DNA of 64,000 nt, taken from Verrucomicrobiia bacterium (GTDB taxonomy: Bacteria > Verrucomicrobiota > Verrucomicrobiia > Verrucomicrobiales > DEV007). Where the stretch lies: positions 248,001 to 312,000 of the forward strand of contig JAUICH010000002.1 of the NCBI GenBank assembly GCA_030427505.1. Direction: 5' to 3'. Numbering within the stretch: position 1 is the stretch's first letter; every line of letters begins with the position of its first letter. Shown here piece by piece: positions 37,856 to 51,215 of the stretch. The position numbers and the translations under genes are program-made. The notes beneath the pieces were generated by a model. The model was given only the letters and a program-made list of their open reading frames with translations, was not told the DNA's origin and did not search any database.

Positions 37856-40800
37856 CTACGCCCCCTGCAACACCTCGCGCACGAAAGGCGCCGTCCGGCT
37901 CGTCTTGTCTTTGGCCACCTCCTCCGGCGGGCCAAATGCCACCACTTCGCCCCCGGCATCTCCGGCTTCCGGGCCGATGTCGATGAGGTAGTCGGCCTCC
38001 GCGATGATGTCCAGGTTGTGTTCGATGACCACGACGGTGTGCCCGTCATCCACCAGCCGGTGCAGCACTTCCAGGAGCCGCCTCACGTCCGCCATGTGCA
38101 GGCCAATGCTGGGCTCTTCAATGAGATAGAGGTTTGCCTTCGCTTTTCGGTTCTGGCGGATGCGGGCATGCTCGCTCCGGCCAATGCCACGCGTCAGTTC
38201 GGTGACGAGCTTGATCCGCTGGGCTTCGCCGCCGCTCAGGGTGGGGCTCGGCTGGCCGAGCTTCAGGTAGCCGAGACCGGTATCGCGCAGGAGACCTAGG
38301 GTGCGGTGCAGTTTCGGGTGACCCGTGAAGAAGTCCGTGGCTTCGTCGATGGTCATGTTCAGGACCTCGCCGATGCTCTTACCGTTGTAGAGTATCTCCA
38401 GCGTGGGCGGGTTGTAGCGTAGGCCGTGGCAGTCCTCACAGGGCACGTAGCTGGTGGGAAGAAACGTCATCTCCAGCTTGATCTGGCCGTTGCCGTTGCA
38501 GGTCTCGCAGCGGCCGCCTTCGGTGTTGAAAGAGAAGCGGCTGGGTGTGTAGCCCCGGGCGCGGGCGTCCGGCAACTGGGCATAGAGCTTCCGAATCTCG
38601 TCGAAGATCTTTACATACGTCGCCGGCGTGGAGCGCGAGGTCTTGCCGATGGGAGATTGGTCCACCTCGTACACCGCTTCGAACGCGTCCGCGCCTTTCA
38701 CCTCCCGCCAGAAGGTTTCTTCCTTGGTCTTCCGGGCGCGTTTCCGGGCCTTGTTCAATTCGATGTCCATCGCGGGCTTCAGCACCCCGCGCATGAAGGA
38801 GGACTTTCCAGACCCGGAGATGCCCGTGATGACGCAGAGCCGCTCCGTGGGAATGCGGATGTCCACGTTTTTGAGGTTATTCTTCCGGCAGCCGTAGAGG
38901 CGCAGCCAGCCCTCCTTGGCGTTGACGGCGGGGATGGGTCGGCGTTCCCCGTTCAGCGGGTGGACCATGGGGTCCTTCAGATACTTCCCAGTGGTCGATT
39001 CCCCGTTCTTCTGCACCTCCGCCAGCGTGCCTTGCGCGGTCACCTGCCCACCCAGCGCCCCGGCACCAGGGCCGAGGTCGATGATGTGGTCGGCCCTCCG
39101 CATGGTGTCCTCGTCGTGCTCGACGACGATGAGGGAGTTGCCCTTGTCGCGCAGGTTCGTGAGGGTCTCCAGCAGACGGGTGTTGTCCCGGGGGTGGAGG
39201 CCGATGGTCGGTTCGTCCAGGACGTAAAGCACGCCCCGCAGATTCGAGCCCAGCTGCGCCGCCAGGCGGATGCGCTGGCTTTCGCCGCCGGAGAGGGTGG
39301 TGGCGGAACGGTCCAGTTGCAGGTAGCCGAGACCCACCTCTTCCATGAAGTGCAGGCGCTGGGAAATCTCCGGCAGGATGTCGCGGGCGATGGTGGCGTC
39401 CTGGCCGGTGAACTTCAGGCCTTCCATGGCGACGCGCGCCTCGCTCACGGTCTGGCGGGCGATCTGGTCGATGGTGAAGTCCTTCACCTTCACGTGCAGC
39501 GCCACTTCGTTCAGCCGCGCGCCCTTGCAGGTGGGGCAGGGGACGAACTCGCTCTCCTCCGCGCGGGAGCGGCGGTACTCCTCGCGCAGTTCCGCGTCCA
39601 TGACGGATTCAGCGCTGGGATCTTCCTCGCGGCGGGGCTGCTTGGCGATCTGGCCGTAACCCCGGCACTCCGGGCACCAGCCGTGGGGGGAATTATAGGA
39701 AAACAGGCGGGGGTCCAGCTCTTCGAAGGACCGGCCCGTGACGGGGTCGCTCATCCGCGTGCTCACCACCTGTAGTTCACCCTTGGTGTCTTCGAACTTC
39801 GCGGTGTCCTTCCCGATCTTTAGGGCTTGCTCGATGAGGTCCCGCACCTCGGGCAGCTTCTGGTCCTTGGTAATCTGGCCCACCACCACATCAATGGTGT
39901 GCTCCTTGAATCGCTCCAGCTTGGTGAAGCCTTCCACTGGCCGGTATTTTCCGTCCACGAGCAGGGTATCGAAGCCCTTCCGGCCCGCCCATTGGGCGAC
40001 CTCGGTATGAAAACCCTTCCGCGCCTTGATCAGCGGGGCTAGGAGTTTGACCGGACCCTTCTTCGCCGCGTCGCGGATGCGGGTGACGATGGAGGACGTG
40101 CTCTGCTTTTCCACCGGCAGGCCGGAGTCGGGCGAATGCTGAATGCCGACCTTGGCAAATAGCAGGCGCAGGAAGTGATACACCTCCGTGACCGTGGCGA
40201 CAGTCGATTTGCCCCCGCCGCGCGAGATGCGCTGCTCGATCGCCACCGTGGGCGGCAGCCCGGCGATGTGGTCGATGTCCGGCCGTTCCATCTGCTCCAC
40301 GAACTGCCGGGCATAGGCGGACATACTGTCGAGGAAACGGCGTTGCCCTTCCGCGAAAAGGATGTCGAAGGCCAAGGTGGATTTGCCCGAACCGCTCAGA
40401 CCCGTGATCACCACAAACTCGTCGCGCGGGATATTGAGCGAGACGTTCTTCAGGTTGTGCTCGCGGGCGCCGTGCAGCTCGATGCTGCCATTGACCGTGC
40501 TGCCGTAGCCATGACCGGGCAGCGCTTTCAACGCGGTGGCGTCTTCCGCCACGCGGCGGGTCTTGCCCAGATTCCGCGCCCCGGCGGGCGTTTCGAGCAG
40601 CTCTTTCAGGAAGCGGCCGGTGTGGGATTTTGCCACCTGGGCTACCGCTTCCGGCGTGCCCATGGCGACGACCTGACCGCCATGCTCGCCCGCTTCGGGC
40701 CCCAGGTCGATCAAGTGGTCCGCGCTCTTGATGACCTCCAGGTTGTGCTCGATGACGATGAGGCTGTCGCCCTGCTCTACCAGGCGGTCGAAGACCTTCA

Positions 40801-43552
40801 GCAACATCGCCACGTCGTCGAAGTGCAGACCGGTCGTTGGCTCGTCGAAAATCAGCAGAGGGCTTTTCCCCTTTGTGTCCTGCGCCTTGGCCTTCTGACC
40901 TTCCAGAAGATGAGCGACCAGTTTCAGGCGCTGACTTTCGCCGCCTGACAAGGTGTTCAGCGGCTGGCCGAGCCGCAGGTAGCCCAGGCCCACGTCCGAG
41001 AGCACCTGCAGGGCGCCGATGATCGAGGTGGCCTTCCGCCCCCCGATGGCGAAGAAAAACTCGATGGCGCCCGTCACCGTCAGGTCCAGTACTTCGTAGA
41101 TGGACTTGTCCTCCAGCTTTACGTCCAGCGCCTCGGGCGTGTAGCGCTTGCCTTCGCATTCCGGGCAGGTCACGTAGAGATCGCTCAGGAACTGCATCTC
41201 CACTTTTTCGAAACCATTGCCCCAACAGCGTTCGCAACGGCCCGCACCGGAGTTGAAGGAAAAATACCCCGGTGTCAGCCCCCGGGCCACGCCGTCCGGC
41301 GTTTCGGCGAAGAGTTTCCGAATCTGTTCGAAGACCCCGATATACACTGCCGGTGTCGAGCGTGGCGTCCGGGATAGGGGCGACTGGTCCACCAGCAGCA
41401 CGTCTGAAATCTGTCCCGCGCCCAACACTTCCTTGCAGCGGCCAGGCTCGTTTTCCGAGGTCCGGCCAAACTGACGGATCAAATTTTCATAGAGAACGGA
41501 GTGGACCAGCGTCGACTTTCCGGAACCGGACACGCCCGTCACGCAGCAGAACACGCCGAGCGGAATCTCCACGTCCACCTTTTGGAGGTTGTGCTGCACC
41601 GCGCGCTGAATGGCGAGCGAGCCCTTGGCCTCCCGCCGCTTTTTGGGGACTGGAATAGCCTTCTGCCCTTTCAGGTAAGCCGCGGTCAGCGAGCCGTTTT
41701 TGCCGCCTTCGGATAACTTCGAGGGCGCGCCCTCAAAAACGACCTGCCCACCATGCTCGCCACGGCCCGGGCCGATGTCGATGAGGTGATCCGCCGAGCG
41801 GATGACGCTCTCCTCATGCTCAACAACGACCAGCGTGTTGCCGTTGTCGCGGAGCTGCTCCATCACTTCGATCAGCCGCCCCACGTCGCGCGGATGCAGG
41901 CCGACGGTCGGTTCGTCCAGGACAAAGAGCGCATTTGTGAGGCTCGCCCCCAGGCAGGTCGTCAGGTTTACCCGCTCCGTCTCGCCGCCGGACAGCGTCC
42001 GCGTGGGCCGGTCTAGGTTCAGGTAGCCCAGGCCCACCCGGTCCAGGTAGCGGAGCCGTGCCAGAATCTCGCCGTGCAGCATCTGGCCGGTCTTATCTCC
42101 CTTGGGAAGCTTCAACTTTTCCAGGAACGGCACCAGCCGCTCGACGGACATCTCCCAAAAGTCCGAGATGGTCTTGCCTTCCACCCGGTAGTTCAGCGAC
42201 TCCGGCTGAAGGCGGCCGCCGTTGCAGACCGGACAGGTGGTGTAGGACCGGTAGCGGCTCAGAAAGACGCGGACGTGCATCTTGTAGGTGCGCGCTTCCA
42301 GGTAGTCGAAGAAACCGCGCACGCCATACCACTCGCCGCGCTCCCAGGCGGACTCGGCGTCGCCCTTGTAGTCGCCTTGGAGCACCCACTTCTGGTCTTC
42401 CTCCGGCAGTTCGTCGAAGGGAGTATCCAGATCTATCCCCCGGATTCGCGCGGTCCGTTCCAGGTCTGTTTGGCATTCGGAATGAACTTCTCCCTGAAAT
42501 GCCTTTACGACGCCGTCCGCGATGGAGAGTGACTTGTCCGGCAGTGCCCGGTCCAGGTCGATCCCGATGACGCGGCCAAAACCCCGGCACTTCGGGCAGG
42601 CCCCGAGGGGATTGTTGAAGCTGAAGAGGTTTGGCGTCGGCGGGCGCAGGTCCGTGTCCGTGCTCGGGGAGTGCCAGCCGCGCGAATACATCGCCCGTTC
42701 CCCGCTCTCGGTTTCCACCAGGGTCACCTTGTTCTTCCCGAGGTGCAGGGCCTGTTCCACCGCCTCCTGGAAGCGCGAGGTCCGCGCGGGTGACACCCGG
42801 TCCTGGATCACATCCACCAGGGCGGGAAGCGCTTTCCGGTCATAGGCTTCCGGCTTGTCGGTCCGGTAAATGGTGCCGTAGAGAAAGACCCGCAGGTAGC
42901 CCTGCTGCTGGAGGAACTCAAAGAATTCGTCCTTGCCTGCGTCTTTCGGCGCTTCGATGCCGAAGGTAATCAGGAGCGGCAGTTCACCGAACTTCTCCTT
43001 CGCCTTCGCCGTGATGGACTGCGGCGTGTCCGGCACGACTTCCTCGCCGGTTTCCGGGTCGTAGCCCTTGCAGAGCCGGGGGAAAAGGAGCTTCAGGTAG
43101 TCATTGATCTCCGTGATCGTCCCGACGGTGGATCGGGTGGTCTTGACCGTGTTGCTCTGCTCGATGGCGATGGCTGGGGGAATTCCGTGAATCGCCTCCA
43201 CCCGGGGCTTGTCCATCCGGTCGAAAAACTGCCGGGTGTAGGGCGAAAAGGTCTCCACATACCGCCGCTGCCCTTCCGCATACAGCGTCTGAAAGGCCAG
43301 TGACGATTTCCCGCTCCCGCTTGGTCCGGTGACGACGTTTAACTTCCCCAGGGGGATATCGAGGTCGATCCCCTTCAGGTTATTCTGCGAGGCCTGCCGC
43401 ACCTGGATGACATCCAGGGGCGCTGCCTTCGGTTTCTTTTTTTTGGACGTGCCCCGAGCCGTGGCACGCGAAGCCGCCGCTTTCTTCTTGGTCTTGCTGT
43501 TGCCGCTGCTGGAAGCCCGTTTCCGGGCCGCTTTGGTCGTCGGTTTTGCCAT
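37856..43552 (-). CDS. uvrA: Double-length UvrA (two UvrA units, four ABC ATPase domains)
   Basis: 1898 residues from ATG at 43552, against about 940 for normal UvrA. A basic tail (1-44) precedes unit A (about 45-1010) and unit B (about 1015-1898). Four Walker A motifs occur: GPSGSGKSS near 76-84, GVSGSGKST near 672, GLSGSGKST near 1050 and GISGSGKSS near 1577. Each domain has an LSGGE signature and a CxxC...CxxC zinc module (CPKC/CPVC, CERC/CPEC, CPEC/CPTC, CETC/CEDC). Walker B sequences are VLDEPT, IFDEPT, VLDEPT and, in the fourth, LIEEPS, with the Asp replaced by Glu. UvrA normally dimerises to find bulky DNA damage for nucleotide excision repair. This chain may be a covalent dimer. No second uvrA is in the window. 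Confidence 0.93.
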   Translation of the reverse strand: MAKPTTKAARKRASSSGNSKTKKKAAASRATARGTSKKKKPKAAPLDVIQVRQASQNNLKGIDLDIPLGKLNVVTGPSGSGKSSLAFQTLYAEGQRRYVETFSPYTRQFFDRMDKPRVEAIHGIPPAIAIEQSNTVKTTRSTVGTITEINDYLKLLFPRLCKGYDPETGEEVVPDTPQSITAKAKEKFGELPLLITFGIEAPKDAGKDEFFEFLQQQGYLRVFLYGTIYRTDKPEAYDRKALPALVDVIQDRVSPARTSRFQEAVEQALHLGKNKVTLVETESGERAMYSRGWHSPSTDTDLRPPTPNLFSFNNPLGACPKCRGFGRVIGIDLDRALPDKSLSIADGVVKAFQGEVHSECQTDLERTARIRGIDLDTPFDELPEEDQKWVLQGDYKGDAESAWERGEWYGVRGFFDYLEARTYKMHVRVFLSRYRSYTTCPVCNGGRLQPESLNYRVEGKTISDFWEMSVERLVPFLEKLKLPKGDKTGQMLHGEILARLRYLDRVGLGYLNLDRPTRTLSGGETERVNLTTCLGASLTNALFVLDEPTVGLHPRDVGRLIEVMEQLRDNGNTLVVVEHEESVIRSADHLIDIGPGRGEHGGQVVFEGAPSKLSEGGKNGSLTAAYLKGQKAIPVPKKRREAKGSLAIQRAVQHNLQKVDVEIPLGVFCCVTGVSGSGKSTLVHSVLYENLIRQFGRTSENEPGRCKEVLGAGQISDVLLVDQSPLSRTPRSTPAVYIGVFEQIRKLFAETPDGVARGLTPGYFSFNSGAGRCERCWGNGFEKVEMQFLSDLYVTCPECEGKRYTPEALDVKLEDKSIYEVLDLTVTGAIEFFFAIGGRKATSIIGALQVLSDVGLGYLRLGQPLNTLSGGESQRLKLVAHLLEGQKAKAQDTKGKSPLLIFDEPTTGLHFDDVAMLLKVFDRLVEQGDSLIVIEHNLEVIKSADHLIDLGPEAGEHGGQVVAMGTPEAVAQVAKSHTGRFLKELLETPAGARNLGKTRRVAEDATALKALPGHGYGSTVNGSIELHGAREHNLKNVSLNIPRDEFVVITGLSGSGKSTLAFDILFAEGQRRFLDSMSAYARQFVEQMERPDIDHIAGLPPTVAIEQRISRGGGKSTVATVTEVYHFLRLLFAKVGIQHSPDSGLPVEKQSTSSIVTRIRDAAKKGPVKLLAPLIKARKGFHTEVAQWAGRKGFDTLLVDGKYRPVEGFTKLERFKEHTIDVVVGQITKDQKLPEVRDLIEQALKIGKDTAKFEDTKGELQVVSTRMSDPVTGRSFEELDPRLFSYNSPHGWCPECRGYGQIAKQPRREEDPSAESVMDAELREEYRRSRAEESEFVPCPTCKGARLNEVALHVKVKDFTIDQIARQTVSEARVAMEGLKFTGQDATIARDILPEISQRLHFMEEVGLGYLQLDRSATTLSGGESQRIRLAAQLGSNLRGVLYVLDEPTIGLHPRDNTRLLETLTNLRDKGNSLIVVEHDEDTMRRADHIIDLGPGAGALGGQVTAQGTLAEVQKNGESTTGKYLKDPMVHPLNGERRPIPAVNAKEGWLRLYGCRKNNLKNVDIRIPTERLCVITGISGSGKSSFMRGVLKPAMDIELNKARKRARKTKEETFWREVKGADAFEAVYEVDQSPIGKTSRSTPATYVKIFDEIRKLYAQLPDARARGYTPSRFSFNTEGGRCETCNGNGQIKLEMTFLPTSYVPCEDCHGLRYNPPTLEILYNGKSIGEVLNMTIDEATDFFTGHPKLHRTLGLLRDTGLGYLKLGQPSPTLSGGEAQRIKLVTELTRGIGRSEHARIRQNRKAKANLYLIEEPSIGLHMADVRRLLEVLHRLVDDGHTVVVIEHNLDIIAEADYLIDIGPEAGDAGGEVVAFGPPEEVAKDKTSRTAPFVREVLQGA

Positions 43553-43769
43553 ACAGGGGAAGGGAGAAAAGAGGGAATAATGAGATACGCACGGCCCACA
43601 CAGGCCGCCACGCAAATACCAGCGAGCCGGAGATTTTCTCTTCCCTGGGACCCCTGCTTATTGACGCCGGCAGGTGGGAAGAGTCCGGACTCGTAATGGA
43701 AGCTAGACGAAAACGGAGAATCCGCCTTTCAAAATTCCACCTCGACGGGAGGAATTTTGGCGAACTTTC

Positions 43770-44387
43770 TCAATCCGCCGAAACCGGCATGTCCCGCAGT
43801 TCCTGGGAAAGTTGGAACAGGCGGTGCACCTGGGAAATGGGGATGTGCGGAATGTCGATGCGCTTCTCCAACCGGAGCAGGACCGAGAAAATGCCGAGGC
43901 CGCTGCCTTCGTCCTTCATCAGCGTGTTACTGACATCCGGCCACCGATAGGCTTCCAGTTCGAAACCGGAACGCTTTTGGTGGAGGATGAGGAAGCGCTT
44001 GTTCGTCAGGATGACGCAGGCTTTTCCCTTGCTGAGCAGGCCGGACTTGTGCTGCACCGCGATGTAGTAAATCTGCTCGTCCTGGGCGGTAATTTCCGAA
44101 ACTTCCCGGAAGCTCAGGGCCACCATCTGCCGGTCCTGCCCGTCGTCCACGAAATGGCTGATTTGCTCCTGGATGTCGAAGACCTTTTCGACCAGTTCCC
44201 AGTCCAGCAGGCCTTCGTAGTAAACGTAGTCGTGGCGGGTCAACTCGTCGCGCTGCAGCATGCCGAGAATGTCATCCAGTGAAACCGGCCCGATGGGCTG
44301 AGTATCGCCGCGCCGGAGGATGGAGAACGAAATCGCGCTGGGCTCCTGGGCTTCGGCGGCGTTTACGTTGGGTGTGTCGTAGCTCAT
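43770..44387 (-). CDS. GYF-like plus PH-like domain protein
   Basis: 205 residues. Residues about 20-70 (FSILRRGDTQPIGPVSLDDILGML, YYEGLLDWELVE) resemble the GYF_2/DUF4339 module common in PVC bacteria. Residues about 100-200 resemble a bacterial PH-like domain (YIAVQHKSGLLSKGKACVILTNKRFLILHQ). No signal peptide or membrane segment is present, so it is cytosolic or peripheral. The family role is unknown, but both modules usually mediate protein or membrane contacts. It lies between the thioesterase and uvrA on the same strand, separated from both by intergenic DNA. Confidence 0.7.
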   Translation of the reverse strand: MSYDTPNVNAAEAQEPSAISFSILRRGDTQPIGPVSLDDILGMLQRDELTRHDYVYYEGLLDWELVEKVFDIQEQISHFVDDGQDRQMVALSFREVSEITAQDEQIYYIAVQHKSGLLSKGKACVILTNKRFLILHQKRSGFELEAYRWPDVSNTLMKDEGSGLGIFSVLLRLEKRIDIPHIPISQVHRLFQLSQELRDMPVSAD

Positions 44388-44589: not shown

Positions 44590-45033
44590 TTAACCCTGGT
44601 TACGCCGCTCGTGTTTCTTTTGGAGATGGGAGTATTTTTCCAGCCATTCGGCGGGTAGCCGCTCCGGTTTTCCAGGGGGTATCCGGACCAGGGCCAGTTG
44701 TTGGCGGCTGGTGGCGATGAGGCTGCCGTCCGAGGGCCGGGTGATGCGAAAGGCACACCAGAACCGGAGCCGGTCCAAGGATTCCAGACCCCCTGTGATT
44801 TCTAGAATGTCCCCCAGCACGGCGGCCCGGCGATAGTCGATTTCCGTGCGGAGCAGAGCAGGGAAAAGGTGGGTTTGGGTCATTTCCCGCAGGTTCATCC
44901 CCATCTGGGTCGCCAGGCGGGTCCGGGCGGTCTCGATGAAGCGGAGATAAGCCAGGTTGTGAACGACGCCCCCGCAGTCGGTATCGAAAAACATGACTTC
45001 TTCCTGGGTGGTGATGGTGGGTGTGTCGGGCAT
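44590..45033 (-). CDS. YbgC/FadM-like acyl-CoA thioesterase
   Basis: 147 residues from ATG at 45033, the usual hot-dog-fold length. The family motif DTDCGGVVHNLAYLRFIE contains the catalytic Asp, followed by an RTEIDYRRAAVLGD pattern. YbgC-type enzymes cleave short-chain or aromatic acyl-CoAs, and in Gram-negatives are often linked to tol-pal. Here the neighbours do not include tol-pal, so the physiological substrate is unclear. Divergent from the Lon-type protein pair. Confidence 0.85.
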   Translation of the reverse strand: MPDTPTITTQEEVMFFDTDCGGVVHNLAYLRFIETARTRLATQMGMNLREMTQTHLFPALLRTEIDYRRAAVLGDILEITGGLESLDRLRFWCAFRITRPSDGSLIATSRQQLALVRIPPGKPERLPAEWLEKYSHLQKKHERRNQG

Positions 45034-45254
45034 GGCGGTAGTGGAGCGTGGGATCGGGGCCCCTGGTTTATTTGAGGTGGAGGATGAAAGTGACGAGATT
45101 CTTTTCAGCAATGGCTTTTCGGCCGGGAAACAGTCGTGTTAAGCTGCGTTTTCCATGAAATCCGGTGTTCGAACTTTCCCCAGAAGGCCCTTGCGGCGTC
45201 TCGCGACGTGAATTCAGGGGAAACGCAGGTTAAGTTCTGCACTCGCGTCAGGTG

Positions 45255-47312
45255 ATGAAGCAATTTCTTTTCCTTGTCCAATCCGCGCCGTTCCGTGCCA
45301 TGGCCGTCTGCCTTGTGTGGTGGGGCCTGGGGGCGGCGGTATTGCCCGTCCGCGCGGACTACGAAGTTCCCAATTTCGACACGAATCTCTTTAACGTGGA
45401 TGCGCTGTCCCTTTCCGTTGAGGAACGGGATGAAGTGGTGCTGGCGCTCGCCGGCCTGGCGGCGGGAGATTCTTTAACCACCGAAGTGGATGACGATCTA
45501 CGGGAAAAGGCGCTCTACCTGGCGTTGCAGTTGAATCCGCTGAACCCAGCCGCGCGCGAGGTACACCGGCAGCTCTCCGCAGGAGAGGGAGAGGCCACGA
45601 AAGCTGGCGGGGACGCCGCTTTTCCCGAAAACGCTTGCGGGGTGCTCTCCGGTTCTGGCATCCGGCTCCTCCAGGAGAAAGCGGAACCGGAAGACGCCAA
45701 ACTCGCTCTGCTGTTGTTGGAGGTGGTTCTCGGCGCGGAGGTGGAACTCGACCAATCCGCGATCAAGGCTTTTTGGGAGGCCACGGCTCCGAAGCACGAA
45801 GTTTCCTGGGGGAAAGCGGTCGCCTGCGATCCTCAGTCGAGCCCCTCCATGAGACGGGTGGCCAGTAAGTTGGCGGCGTTCTCCGTGGCTTATGCTGAAA
45901 AGGATAGAGCCGTGAGTCAGATGGCTGCGTCCAAAGCGCCACCCGCCGCCCTGGATCCTTTCGCGGAGATGGAGACAGGCCCCTCCAATCTGGGCAGCAA
46001 CCTGCCAACCGCCGGTTCCGCGCCCAGCATTGGGAAAGAGCCCCGGATTGCCGAACTGAAGCGGCGCGACGGCAGCCTGATCGTGGTGGCCGGGGGCGGA
46101 CAACCCGGAACGTACCATACCGTCCGGGTGACGCTGAAGGTTAGAGACCTCTCGGAGTTTCAGGACGGCCGCTTTGGGCTTTTTAGTGAAGACGAGGCCC
46201 AGGTCCAGCCCATGTTCATGGCCAACGCGGACCCGGAGCGGAAGGGCGAAGGACTGAAGCTGGCGGAAAGCGCGCTCCGCGAACGCTATGATCGATTGCC
46301 CACCGGCGTCGTGGCCGAACTGAGCGTGGAGAGTTTACCTCCTGGCGCCGGAGGAGAAGGCGCTCCGGAACCGGCGATGGCCGGCGAGGCGAGCACCAGC
46401 CTGGATCTGAGCCTGGCGGCCCTGGTTCTTGTGGAAAGCGCCTTTCAGGGGATTCAGTTTGATTCCACCGCCGCGGTTGGCGGATTCCTGGCGGAGGGTG
46501 GCTTGTTGGGCATGGGGGTGGATGCCGTGCCGCTGCTGGAAGAAGCCGGCCGGCATGAGATCCGGGTCCTCGCCCTTCCCGCGGCGGCTGAAGAGTTTCT
46601 GCCCGATGCCACCAAAGAAGCTGGCCTGGAACTGCTCGTGCGGCCTCAACTCCTGGCGGCGGCGGATGTGGAGGGACTCATCCGTGTCCTCCGCGCCAAC
46701 CGGGCCGATAAGATTCAGAAGGCGATCGACGATTTTTCCAGCGTGGAGAACCTGACGCCACAGCGGATGACCTTGGAAAATGCCGCCACCAATCAGGCGG
46801 TCCAGCGCCGGTTGCGAGGGGTCCTGGAAGCGGTTCCGGAGCATCTTTCGGCCGCCATGCTGCTGCGCTTTGGCGAAGAAGGATCCGCCGGTAACAGCCC
46901 GGCAAACGAATTCTCGGGCGAACCGGAGCCCGGCTCTCCCATGCCCCCATCGGCGGGTTCCAGTCCGGACACACCCAAACCGCCGTCCTCCACGGGCGTC
47001 ATGGATGAGATCGAGGCTGTTATGTTGCCTCTGAAAACCATGGCGGACGCCACCTCCGTCGTGACCATTCCAGGTCAGGTGGACGCCTTGTGCGGAAAGG
47101 CTCGCGATCTCATTCGCACCCGGCGGACCGAAGTGGACGTGTCCATGCGAAACTACATGAACCAGGCAGAAAACGTGCTGGAGGCTTACAAACTCTTTCT
47201 GGATCTGTCCAATCGTTCGACCAGCATCGCACAACAGCGCCGCCGGGAACTGCGGGAGGCGCTCGCCAATTTGAGTGCGGAACGGACTCGAGTGGAAGGC
47301 ATGGAACGATGA
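45255..47312 (+). CDS. Exported S16 (Lon-type) pseudoprotease paralog
   Basis: 685 residues from ATG at 45255 (a GTG lies one codon before). The signal peptide (about 1-35, ending VRA) is followed by a helical N-terminus sharing the pattern YxxPNxxxNLF with the next protein. A Lon-like region follows at about 330-442. There the catalytic Ser position is Asp384 (SLDLSLAALVLVES against GPSAAVACSLLLES in the neighbour) and the Lys position is lost (GVDAVPLLEE against GVDGKIRGAT). Low-complexity stretches lie before and after (Ser/Pro/Gly). The C-terminus has a helical domain. The downstream gene encodes an intact relative, 57 nt away, so a regulatory or partner role for this dead homologue is plausible but unproven. 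Confidence 0.75.
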   Translation: MKQFLFLVQSAPFRAMAVCLVWWGLGAAVLPVRADYEVPNFDTNLFNVDALSLSVEERDEVVLALAGLAAGDSLTTEVDDDLREKALYLALQLNPLNPAAREVHRQLSAGEGEATKAGGDAAFPENACGVLSGSGIRLLQEKAEPEDAKLALLLLEVVLGAEVELDQSAIKAFWEATAPKHEVSWGKAVACDPQSSPSMRRVASKLAAFSVAYAEKDRAVSQMAASKAPPAALDPFAEMETGPSNLGSNLPTAGSAPSIGKEPRIAELKRRDGSLIVVAGGGQPGTYHTVRVTLKVRDLSEFQDGRFGLFSEDEAQVQPMFMANADPERKGEGLKLAESALRERYDRLPTGVVAELSVESLPPGAGGEGAPEPAMAGEASTSLDLSLAALVLVESAFQGIQFDSTAAVGGFLAEGGLLGMGVDAVPLLEEAGRHEIRVLALPAAAEEFLPDATKEAGLELLVRPQLLAAADVEGLIRVLRANRADKIQKAIDDFSSVENLTPQRMTLENAATNQAVQRRLRGVLEAVPEHLSAAMLLRFGEEGSAGNSPANEFSGEPEPGSPMPPSAGSSPDTPKPPSSTGVMDEIEAVMLPLKTMADATSVVTIPGQVDALCGKARDLIRTRRTEVDVSMRNYMNQAENVLEAYKLFLDLSNRSTSIAQQRRRELREALANLSAERTRVEGMER

Positions 47313-47369
47313 ATTGTGGAATTAGCCGTGACAGGAGAAAGCTGTTTAGAATACTGTGATACCACTGCC

Positions 47370-49121
47370 ATGAATGCCAAGAAACGCTTCTTTTCGTTAT
47401 TTCAGGCGCTCGTTTGGGCCGTCATGTTAACAGGGTTGATGGCCGCTTCGGCTTGGCAGCCGGTCTTGGGGCAGGAGGCTCCCTATCAAGAACCCAATTT
47501 GTCGGCGAATTTGTTTGAGGCGGAAAAGATCGAATTTGCCGCTGAAGAGAAAGAGCGCCTGACCGATTACCTGACGAAGGTGGCGCGAAATCTGGAGGTC
47601 TCCAATCGCGTCAAAGCCAAAGCCTTGGCGCTTGCCTTGAGGTTGGAACCCACCAAGAAGGAAGCCTTTGTCGCGAACTACCAACTCAAGCGGGGCGAAA
47701 CGCCGGAGCCCTTGGAAGGTCCCGCCGACCCAGCGCAGATCGCGAATTTTTTCTGGGAGTATGGGGATAGTCTCAGAGCCTTTGGCGAAGACAATCCAGA
47801 CGCCCTGAAACTGGCCGGATTCCTGATGGACATGGCGGTGGAAGTGGACCCGGACAACGTGGACCGGGCCTATGCCCTGGCGATGTACAAGCAGGAGGGT
47901 AACGCCGTGGATTGGGGCCTCACCATGCCGGTTGCCGCCGCCGCGAAGACCAGCATGTCGTCGATGAAGGTTCCCGCGACTCCCGGTGGGAAGGATGCCG
48001 AACTGGCCCGTACCCAGTCTTTGATCAAAGGGCTCCTGGTGCGCCCCCTGGAAGGCAGCCGTTATGCGGGCAAGGCGTCCCAGATGAATGCCACGGCCAC
48101 CGAAACGGGAGGCAATCAAGAGATGAAAGTCGATTTCAATCAGGAAGTGGGAGATTCCATGCATTCCGCCCTGAACGAAGTGGTCAAATACCTTCGGGTC
48201 CGGCATGGGCGGCTTCCTTCCGGGTATGAGGTGGAGATCAGCTTTGAGGAGCAATACATCCCCAAGGACGGTCCTTCCGCCGCAGTCGCGTGTTCCTTGC
48301 TTCTGGAATCTCTGATCTCCGGCATGGAGATCGACGAAAACTTTGCCGTCACCGGGGACCTGAACGCGGACGGCACCGTCCAGCCGGTGGGTGGCGTGGA
48401 TGGTAAGATCCGCGGCGCCACCAAGAGGGACTGCAACGTCATCGCCATCCCGAGTCAGAATGTCAGCGTGGTGAGCGATCTTCTGCTCATGTCCGGACCG
48501 GCCGCCATCACGAACATCCAGGTCTTCAGCATCGAGACTTTCGAACAGGCCGCCGCTCTGGCCCAGGCGCCAGAGAAACGTTCTGAAGATCTCCAGAAAG
48601 CCATCGACAGCTTTACGGAAATTCAGGAAGTGCTCCACCGTCCCAATGGTTTCGCGTATCTGAAAAACGCCAAGGTTCAGGAACGTCTGCGGGAAGTCGT
48701 CAAACTGGCGCCGAACCACCAGTCCGCCATCTGGCTGCTGTATGAAGGGCTGGGCCGCTCCCCGGACCGGCTGACGCTTCAGGGGTCTCTTATTTACATC
48801 GACCGGGCGGCGGAGCCCCTCATCCGTGCCATTCGCCAGGGCAAGTTTGATGCCCAGAGCCCTCTGGACGGAGATGAGTACGCGGACTCAGCCTATGCGT
48901 TGCGGCGGCTTCGGAACAAGCTGGACAACCGCACGGTGGATCTGGCGGATGCCATCATCTCCTACGCTTCGTTGATGCGTACCTTCGTGAACGACCGGCC
49001 GAATTCCTATAACAAGCTGAATGAACTGATCTCGGAAATCCGGAACGCGGGGTCAGCCGTTTCCCGAGCTTATGACGACTTATACAATCGCGTCGATGTT
49101 CAGGAAGAACTGATGCAGTGA
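47370..49121 (+). CDS. Exported Lon-type (S16) serine protease without AAA domain
   Basis: 583 residues from ATG at 47370. A signal peptide (about 1-35, ending VLGQ) is followed by a helical, TPR-like N-terminus (about 55-190). The S16 domain spans about 215-400. The Ser-Lys dyad is intact: Ser303 in IPKDGPSAAV and Lys346 in GGVDGKIRGA, a spacing of 43 residues, the same as in E. coli Lon (Ser679, Lys722). FAVTGDLNADGTVQPVGG matches the conserved Lon core. No ATPase domain is present, and the signal peptide places it outside the cytosol. The C-terminal 180 residues are helical. Substrates are unknown. It probably forms one transcription unit with the degenerate relative upstream. Confidence 0.85.
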   Translation: MNAKKRFFSLFQALVWAVMLTGLMAASAWQPVLGQEAPYQEPNLSANLFEAEKIEFAAEEKERLTDYLTKVARNLEVSNRVKAKALALALRLEPTKKEAFVANYQLKRGETPEPLEGPADPAQIANFFWEYGDSLRAFGEDNPDALKLAGFLMDMAVEVDPDNVDRAYALAMYKQEGNAVDWGLTMPVAAAAKTSMSSMKVPATPGGKDAELARTQSLIKGLLVRPLEGSRYAGKASQMNATATETGGNQEMKVDFNQEVGDSMHSALNEVVKYLRVRHGRLPSGYEVEISFEEQYIPKDGPSAAVACSLLLESLISGMEIDENFAVTGDLNADGTVQPVGGVDGKIRGATKRDCNVIAIPSQNVSVVSDLLLMSGPAAITNIQVFSIETFEQAAALAQAPEKRSEDLQKAIDSFTEIQEVLHRPNGFAYLKNAKVQERLREVVKLAPNHQSAIWLLYEGLGRSPDRLTLQGSLIYIDRAAEPLIRAIRQGKFDAQSPLDGDEYADSAYALRRLRNKLDNRTVDLADAIISYASLMRTFVNDRPNSYNKLNELISEIRNAGSAVSRAYDDLYNRVDVQEELMQ

Positions 49122-49175
49122 GGCCATCCGGTTTTCTGAGCCGGTTCGCGATTGCAGAAGCGGTTCCGCCGGGTT

Positions 49176-51215
49176 ATGGGGTGGGTTTTCCGGGTTCCAA
49201 GGTTCCGGAAAAAACGAAACCGCAACGCTACCCGAACTCGATTGGCGCCAGCAGATCACAGCCCCAGCGGAGACACCGGGCGTCCCGTTCGCCGGATCGC
49301 CTATCTGTATTCCCGTTACCCAGTGGTTTCGCAGACCTTTTGCGATTCCGAGATGCTGGCCCTGGAAGCCAAGGGGTTCCGCATCGAGATCGGTTCGCTG
49401 AATCCGCCCAGGGACGCCTTCCGGCACGAGCGGTTCACCAGCCTGGAGGGGCAGGTCCATTACCCACCGCCACCGGAGATCCTGAAGGCCCTCGTCGGGC
49501 TGGAGGAAAAGAGCGGCGCCTGGCAGGAGCGCCTGGTGCCCATGATCCAGCGGCACGAGGAAGTCTATGGCGCTTCCTTCAAGCCGGACGTACGCGCGCG
49601 GAACGCGCTCTATTTTTCGGGTCTTTTCCAGCGCCTGGGCATCCAGCACGTCCACGTCCACTTTGCCAACCGGGCCACTCACACCGCGCTTTTCATGAAG
49701 CAGTGGGCCGGGCTGCCCTTCAGCTTCACGGCGCACGCGCAGGATTTCATGGTGGATCTGGGCAGTGACGAACTGCTCCGCGAACTGTGCCGGGAAGCGG
49801 AGTTCGTTGTGGCGGTCAGTGATTTCAGCAAGGCGCTGCTCCAGGAAAAATGCCCGGATTCGGCGGACAAGATCTTCCGCGTTTACAACGGCATTACGCC
49901 CTCCGCCTTTCCGGGCGCGCGCATCGGGGGCGGGCCGCTGCGCATCATTTCCATCGGGAGACTCATTGAGTTCAAGGGCTTTCACCACCTCATCGGCGCC
50001 TGCGGTCTGTTGCGAAAGCGGGGCTTCGATTTTTCCTGCACCATCATCGGTGACGGCCCTTGGCGGGAGATCCTGGAAGTCCACGCCAAGGAGGGCGGCA
50101 TCGAGGACCGGGTCCACTTTCCCGGCGTGCTGACTCAAGAGGAGGTCAAGGCTCGTTTTCAGGAAAGCGATGTCTTTGCCCTGCCCTGCATCGTGGACCG
50201 GAAGGGGGCTTCCGACATTCTGCCCACCGTCATCATGGAAGCCATGGCCTGCGGACTGCCCGTGGTATCCACCCGGCTGGTCGGCGTTCCCGAAATGGTC
50301 GATGATGGCGTGACGGGTCTGCTGGCGGAGCCTGGGGACGAAAAAGGCTTCGCCGATGCGCTGGAACGCCTGGCTTTGAACCGCGAACTGGCCCGTCAGC
50401 TCGGCGAGGCCGGGCGGGCCGCGGCGGAAGAGAAGTTCGATCAAGAAAAGACGTCGAGCCAACTCGCGGAAAAATTTGGGGCCCTCTTGCCGGAGCCTTC
50501 CGCCAGCCCGGAGGCGAAGTGGGCCTACCTGATGGCCGACTGGCCGGGCCGTGGCGAACGGAACGTGAATGCCGAGCTGTGTTTCCTTTCCGAAAGTGGT
50601 AAGCCGGGAACGGAGGTGGACCTTCTCTGCTGCCGGCTCTCGAAGCGGTTCCGTCCCAACGGCCTGGACGAAGAACAAGCCGCGTTGCTTCCCCGGATCG
50701 AGTTCTTACCGGATGCCATCGTGGCGGAGGCGGAGTGGCGGCAGTCCGCCAGCGAGGCCCGTCGCATTTTGGAATGGCGGCTCGAGTTCGGCACCGCCCT
50801 GCAGACGGAAGACTACCTGGTGCAGGGGCGCCGGGCGTTGGTGCTTTCCCGCCTGGTGGAAAAGCGCGGGCTGCGGCACGTTCACGCCGCCCGCTCCGAC
50901 GTGGCCCTGGCGGCTTGGCTGGTGGGTCGCCTCAGCGGCGTGCCCTTCAGCGTGACCATCGAAGAAGACCCCACGCTGCCCGCCGCCATCATCGACCGCA
51001 TTCTGGAAGACGCCGCCTTCGCCAACGTCTGCCGGCCGGAACGCTACAAAGCCGCCGCCGCGTTCCGGGACGACCTGGGCCTCGAAAAGACGGACTCCCG
51101 CCGCCGCGTCAAAGTCGGTCCCGTGAAACTGAGCTGGAAAGGCCGCGATCCGGCCACTGACCCCGCGCCTCTGTATGAGGCCTGGTTCTCGAAACTGACC
51201 GCTTCCCTGCGGTGA
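49176..51215 (+). CDS. GT4-type glycosyltransferase with long C-terminal extension
   Basis: About 679 residues from ATG at 49176. TTG at 49152 would add 8 residues. The N-terminal 420 residues form a GT-B enzyme: YSRYPVVSQTF, HVHFANRATH, FTAHAQD, and the donor-site region RLIEFKGFHHLI. The C-terminal domain motif IMEAMACGLPVVS is also present. GT4 enzymes use nucleotide sugars for exopolysaccharide or lipopolysaccharide synthesis. The final 260 residues resemble no known domain and could be a decayed or diverged second GT-like module (RHVHAARSDVALAAWLVGRLSGVPFSVT echoes the HVHFANRATH region). The GT2 gene follows 52 nt later. Confidence 0.85.
   Translation: MGWVFRVPRFRKKRNRNATRTRLAPADHSPSGDTGRPVRRIAYLYSRYPVVSQTFCDSEMLALEAKGFRIEIGSLNPPRDAFRHERFTSLEGQVHYPPPPEILKALVGLEEKSGAWQERLVPMIQRHEEVYGASFKPDVRARNALYFSGLFQRLGIQHVHVHFANRATHTALFMKQWAGLPFSFTAHAQDFMVDLGSDELLRELCREAEFVVAVSDFSKALLQEKCPDSADKIFRVYNGITPSAFPGARIGGGPLRIISIGRLIEFKGFHHLIGACGLLRKRGFDFSCTIIGDGPWREILEVHAKEGGIEDRVHFPGVLTQEEVKARFQESDVFALPCIVDRKGASDILPTVIMEAMACGLPVVSTRLVGVPEMVDDGVTGLLAEPGDEKGFADALERLALNRELARQLGEAGRAAAEEKFDQEKTSSQLAEKFGALLPEPSASPEAKWAYLMADWPGRGERNVNAELCFLSESGKPGTEVDLLCCRLSKRFRPNGLDEEQAALLPRIEFLPDAIVAEAEWRQSASEARRILEWRLEFGTALQTEDYLVQGRRALVLSRLVEKRGLRHVHAARSDVALAAWLVGRLSGVPFSVTIEEDPTLPAAIIDRILEDAAFANVCRPERYKAAAAFRDDLGLEKTDSRRRVKVGPVKLSWKGRDPATDPAPLYEAWFSKLTASLR

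Follow-up and report, generated by a model that had tools for sequence, protein, structure and literature searches.

Two Lon-Type Genes and Their Neighbors

The window, a stretch of 64,000 nucleotides, carries two adjacent genes on the forward strand, 57 bp apart, whose products both combine a signal-peptide-like N-terminus with a Lon-type core. The first encodes P1 (45255 to 47312, 685 aa), a putatively exported Lon-like pseudoprotease whose S16-like core lacks the catalytic serine and lysine, and the second encodes P2 (47370 to 49121, 583 aa), a putatively exported Lon-type (S16) Ser-Lys protease with no ATPase domain. Both frames are intact, that of P2 running from an ATG at 47370, with a GTG at 47316 as a possible earlier opening. 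The initial annotation had placed two proteins sharing the N-terminal pattern YxxPNxxxNLF at these positions, and this holds, the two versions of the pattern being YEVPNFDTNLF and YQEPNLSANLF. BLASTP aligns P1 with P2 at 28% identity over the C-terminal part (E 2e-12) and at 29% over the first 189 residues, making them paralogs along most of their length, and the order of secondary-structure elements is identical in their predicted structures, in each of which helical arms flank a Lon-type core. The two structures were predicted from alignments of 34–35 sequences, that of P1 including two active sequences (P0002 and L094). A profile-profile match of the alignments A1 and A2 (E 4e-69) is set aside as evidence because it is partly circular: sequences of either group also occur in the alignment made for the other. 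Repeats resembling TPRs are discernible by eye in the arms of both proteins, for example ALALALRLEPTKKEAF and VVKLAPNHQSA, and TPR models gave no match to these arms; judging from the residue pattern, the arms may be TPR-like. By a simple hydropathy rule, rather than a trained predictor, signal-peptide-like N-termini are present in 26 of 27 P1-type and 24 of 28 P2-type relatives.

Divergently from P1, on the reverse strand, lies a gene for a YbgC/FadM-type acyl-CoA thioesterase (44590 to 45111). It is a marker of the P1 locus in three families, f1, f2, and f6, where P1-type genes stand head-to-head with it. Further out on the same strand is a conserved neighbor of the locus encoding a GYF_2-domain protein (43770 to 44387), assigned by Pfam on the L077 ortholog, with a weak bPH_3 match. 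A UvrA gene follows beyond the thioesterase in several relatives, including L067, L134, and L135; in the window it is double-length (37856 to 43615, reverse strand, 1919 aa) and also matches the chlamydial-type model PRK00635. On the other side, a family-4 glycosyltransferase gene (49152 to 51215, forward strand) directly succeeds the P1-type gene in members of f1 and f6, while in the window P2 intervenes.

P2 has an N-terminal helical domain (47472 to 47950). In relatives the N-terminal domain of P1 and P2 also forms entire exported-looking proteins by itself, each about 200 residues long (L159–L166), and some of these loci lie near a guanido-kinase gene that is McsB-like by eye; such independent occurrence suits a binding module. 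The S16 proteolytic domain of P2 (residues 214–398, 48009 to 48563) matches Pfam Lon_C with an E-value of 3.3e-15 and 56.7 bits (gathering score 21.1), with no other match of weight, and all significant matches in a PDB sequence search are Lon proteases. As originally annotated, Ser303 (codon 48276–48278) and Lys346 (codon 48405–48407) lie 43 residues apart, within PKDGPSAA...GGVDGK, which contains the LonA-type motif DGPSA. The AlphaFold2 model built on the family alignment (mean pLDDT 90.6) superposes on the proteolytic domain of E. coli Lon with TM scores of 0.83–0.86, normalized to the length of the domain, and an rmsd of about 2.6, the value of 0.86 being reached with 1rr9. By profile, Ser-Lys dyad, and predicted fold, P2 thus belongs to MEROPS S16. 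No AAA or AAA-like module was found by Pfam and NCBIfam scans or in the model, which has helical arms only; Pfam gave no PDZ match, and the NCBIfam SepM model scored 20 against a cut-off of 200. Together with the Lon_C match, the Lon-like model, and a signal peptide that looks cleavable, this bears out the earlier proposal of a predicted-exported, ATPase-less protease of the Lon fold. Pfam Lectin_C (C-type lectin domain) is also matched by 3 of the 34 proteins of alignment A2, which is nearly all P2-type.

P1 is laid out as a putative signal peptide (about residues 1–34), an N-terminal helical domain (36–232, 45357 to 45950), an S16-like core (269–480, 46059 to 46694), and two C-terminal helical regions (481–546 and 578–685). 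Pfam and NCBIfam scans of P1 matched no curated family, and phmmer with the single sequence found no match in the PDB, Lon being reached only with a family profile; a profile from P1-type proteins alone retrieved only Lon-like chains from the PDB (best E 1.4e-4). The AlphaFold2 model, also built on the family alignment (mean pLDDT 82.3), has its best fold matches in Lon proteolytic domains (TM 0.75–0.77), followed by the Lon-like domains of BrxL and RadA, two proteins that have this fold but are not known to be proteases. Comparison of the predicted structures with the Lon proteolytic domain, which had been proposed as a check, thus gives an S16-like fold for both proteins (TM 0.86 for P2 and 0.77 for P1). 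The helix after the catalytic serine starts at 305 in the P2 model and at 386 in that of P1, which equates Ser303 with Asp384, and the helix bearing Lys346 starts at 343 and 424, which equates Lys346 with about Leu427; there is no lysine in P1 between residues 362 and 453. The reported aspartate at the serine position and the missing lysine are therefore correct for the P1 of the window, but the aspartate is not a general trait. It sits in a stretch absent from most P1 orthologs and is peculiar to this protein, so that Asp384 was rejected as a meaningful catalytic replacement; what generalizes is the loss of both Ser and Lys. The Ser-Lys dyad of an S16 peptidase is lacking in P1 and in all orthologs having that region, and given its TM score of about 0.77 to Lon and its profile similarity, P1 is a non-peptidase homolog with the S16 fold.

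Dyad State and Conservation across the Order

About 100 members of this protein family were collected from 142 genomes of the order and aligned; the order is taken to be Verrucomicrobiales, partly on account of the double UvrA of chlamydial type. Both Ser and Lys are kept in 45 of the 47 members of the P2-type clade, the exceptions being L111 (Ser/Met) and L116 (Ser/Arg). The latter is the middle copy of a triple tandem of Lon-like genes (L116:6576–13616), in which Arg replaces the catalytic Lys. On the other side of the family, the dyad is missing in 27 of 27 P1-type proteins of f1, which form one clade (support 98), and these fall together with the dyad-less proteins of f2 and f6 on the same side of a branch that also has a support of 98. 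P1 is accordingly a true pseudoprotease, as had been suspected, and since none of the homologs of P1 retains the dyad, a local mutation or a pseudogene was rejected on both the dyad survey and the tree. A single loss of catalysis ahead of the split of f1, f2, and f6 would explain this most simply. A distinct second dead lineage is represented by L096, L098, and L100, and a single clade uniting it with P1 was rejected (p-AU 0.003).

The distribution of near-invariant columns differs between the two groups: in P1-type proteins they number 25 of 187 in the N-terminal domain and 3 of 199 in the S16-like core (Fisher p 5e-6), whereas in the P2-type proteins of f1 they number 3 of 145 and 68 of 185, respectively (Fisher p 1e-16). 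P1-type proteins have about 35 such columns in all, and their best conserved part is the N-terminal helical domain with the first C-terminal helical region. Within the N-terminal domain of P1, D49, D79, and R101 are invariant and D81, E84, and K85 nearly so. The core offers no conserved candidate for an alternative nucleophile. Among its Ser, Cys, His, and Lys residues S395 alone is conserved, and it corresponds to a non-catalytic position of P2. P1 shares 21–30% identity with its orthologs, whose frames are open and full-length. Constraint has thus moved to the arms, and the pseudoprotease is therefore not decaying.

Co-occurrence, Tandems, and Gene Context

P1 is present in 28 of the 42 sampled f1 genomes and as a fragment in one more. 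In 13 of the 28 P1-bearing genomes, a search by profile recovered only P1 itself and cytosolic Lon, with no P2-type gene. In total 16 f1 genomes have both, 13 P1 only, 2 P2 only, and 11 neither, which is above chance (Fisher p 0.02, uncorrected for kinship), and as many of the genomes are draft assemblies, these absences are soft. P2-type genes also occur in further orders of the class; there the only matches to the P1 profile were partial ones, to P2-type proteins. Whether the pseudoprotease always accompanies the protease had been proposed as a check, and it does not: within the order, P2-type genes mostly lack a dead neighbor, this being the rule in f4 and elsewhere, and in the closest relatives (G061 and G007) the glycosyltransferase gene comes directly after P1, with P2 on another contig. 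P1 as an obligate partner of P2 is consequently not supported.

Tandems of a dead and an active gene nevertheless occur in seven genomes (the window, L096, L098, L100, L118, L120, and L121), representing three dead lineages, and the dead copy always comes first. The tandems at L096:6743–10017, L098:8015–11409, and L100:7157–10416 are independent, their two genes overlap by 4 bp, and their dead copies have GPAA or similar, with Arg for Lys. Given the rejection of a single clade for P1 and this overlapping lineage, the tandem arrangement arose more than once. Recurrent tandems and above-chance co-occurrence argue for some functional link. Of the original idea of a protease with a dead partner, the recurring dead-first arrangement gives partial support, while the dedicated partnership is not supported, leaving the case for such a system weaker than thought. 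Many relatives have retained P1, frequently in the absence of the protease, which suggests that it does its own job in the cell envelope.

Four f2 loci (L118, L121, L130, and L146) have a gene of an HtrA/DegP-type cluster directly downstream of a pseudo-Lon gene, either alone or with an active Lon-like gene. The HtrA/DegP-type protein of L118 matches Pfam Trypsin_2 plus PDZ, and in some of these loci an OmpA-family gene comes next. By context, these neighbors suggest a place for the Lon-like family in protein quality control of the envelope.

Possible Roles of a Dead and an Active Lon Paralog

We consider the two proteins to belong, probably if by no means certainly, to an exported, ATP-independent Lon-like family in which an old pseudoprotease branch serves as a binding scaffold that is sometimes coupled to the protease. 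P2 would have a LonA-like catalytic domain in which helical, TPR-like arms replace the AAA+ motor, and it would cut unfolded or loosely folded proteins beyond the inner membrane in an ATP-free manner. P1 would be an old paralog that lost catalysis before three or more families in the order diverged, retaining the S16-like fold as a scaffold, with selection now acting on the helical parts at its N- and C-terminal ends. Its most likely role would be that of a cell-envelope binding protein, for a client or a partner, working alone in many genomes. When encoded immediately before an active copy, as in the window, it may in addition deliver substrates to that protease or become part of its oligomer. 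Export of the two proteins, the activity of P2, the binding role of P1, and any physical interaction are inferred.

Several other accounts of P1 have to be set against this reading. That it is a functionless, decaying duplicate is scarcely credible, for the strong drift of the S16-like core and the low identity to orthologs are countered by full-length open frames, the near-invariant columns, and a locus conserved across three families. An enzymatic activity exerted through other residues of the S16-like or helical parts is very improbable: the charged residues conserved in the N-terminal domain might invite it, yet they sit in a helical repeat of no known catalytic fold, and the core is devoid of conserved Ser, Cys, His, and Lys apart from S395. 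We also regard it as rather unlikely that P1 is dedicated to P2 as its regulatory or structural subunit, acting through a mixed Lon-like ring, substrate delivery, or inhibition. The close spacing of two full-length paralogs on one strand, the dead-upstream-of-active tandems with their occasional 4-bp overlap, and the hexamers formed by Lon-like proteases (PMC3391209) would all fit, but the genomes with P1 alone, the separation of the genes in the closest relatives, and the many P2-type genes without a dead neighbor weigh against it. 

For P2, a site-specific processing role on one or a few substrates, like that of SepM or YlbL, is somewhat unlikely but worth keeping in view, and it is compatible with the P1 half of the scaffold reading. 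SepM and YlbL, the exported proteins of the Lon-like type that have been characterized, each have particular substrates (PMC11197336, PMC6051672), and P2 is without an ATPase; on the other hand, P2-type genes are multicopy and varied, with a lectin domain in some relatives, and the HtrA/DegP-type and OmpA-family neighbors in f2 fit envelope quality control. A broader and improbable extension is an envelope proteostasis system of the order, in which inactive Lon paralogs, evolved repeatedly, mix with or feed active ones alongside HtrA.

LonC is a cytosolic protein. Like P2, MtaLonC has a Lon domain with catalytic Ser and Lys and no working ATPase, but it retains a degenerate AAA-like module that P2 lacks, and in vitro it needs no ATP to cleave proteins that are unfolded or flexible (PMC3391209). 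Full-length LonA, LonB, and LonC differ from both P1 and P2 in having the protease domain fused to an AAA+ or AAA-like module. YlbL and SepM have an extracytoplasmic Lon-type Ser-Lys domain without an AAA+ ATPase, as is predicted for P2, and YlbL shows that a Lon-like protein of this kind can be functional outside the cell; however, YlbL is membrane-anchored and has a PDZ domain (PMC6051672), whereas P2 has no PDZ match, a cleavable-looking signal peptide, and helical arms on both sides. RadA and BrxL are cytosolic, DNA-acting ATPase proteins, in contrast to the exported-looking, ATPase-less P1. An active protease with dead paralogs retained by selection is also known from ClpP/ClpR and FtsH/FtsHi (PMC6508832, PMC8197885), but these have other protease folds, and ClpR takes its place as a subunit in the ring of the protease core, whereas P1 occurs without P2.

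In the open-access literature searched, we came across no account of a Lon pseudoprotease that is exported, and the exported Lon-like family with its ancient pseudoprotease branch appears to be little studied. Lon is best known as an ATP-driven protease of the cytosol, and here exported, motor-less Lon-type proteases are predicted in members of a whole bacterial class, one branch of which was dead before three families split, its flanking helical domains still being under selection. The family would thereby offer a natural test of the role of the Lon fold without proteolysis or ATP, and of the way in which pseudoproteases function in the cell envelope.
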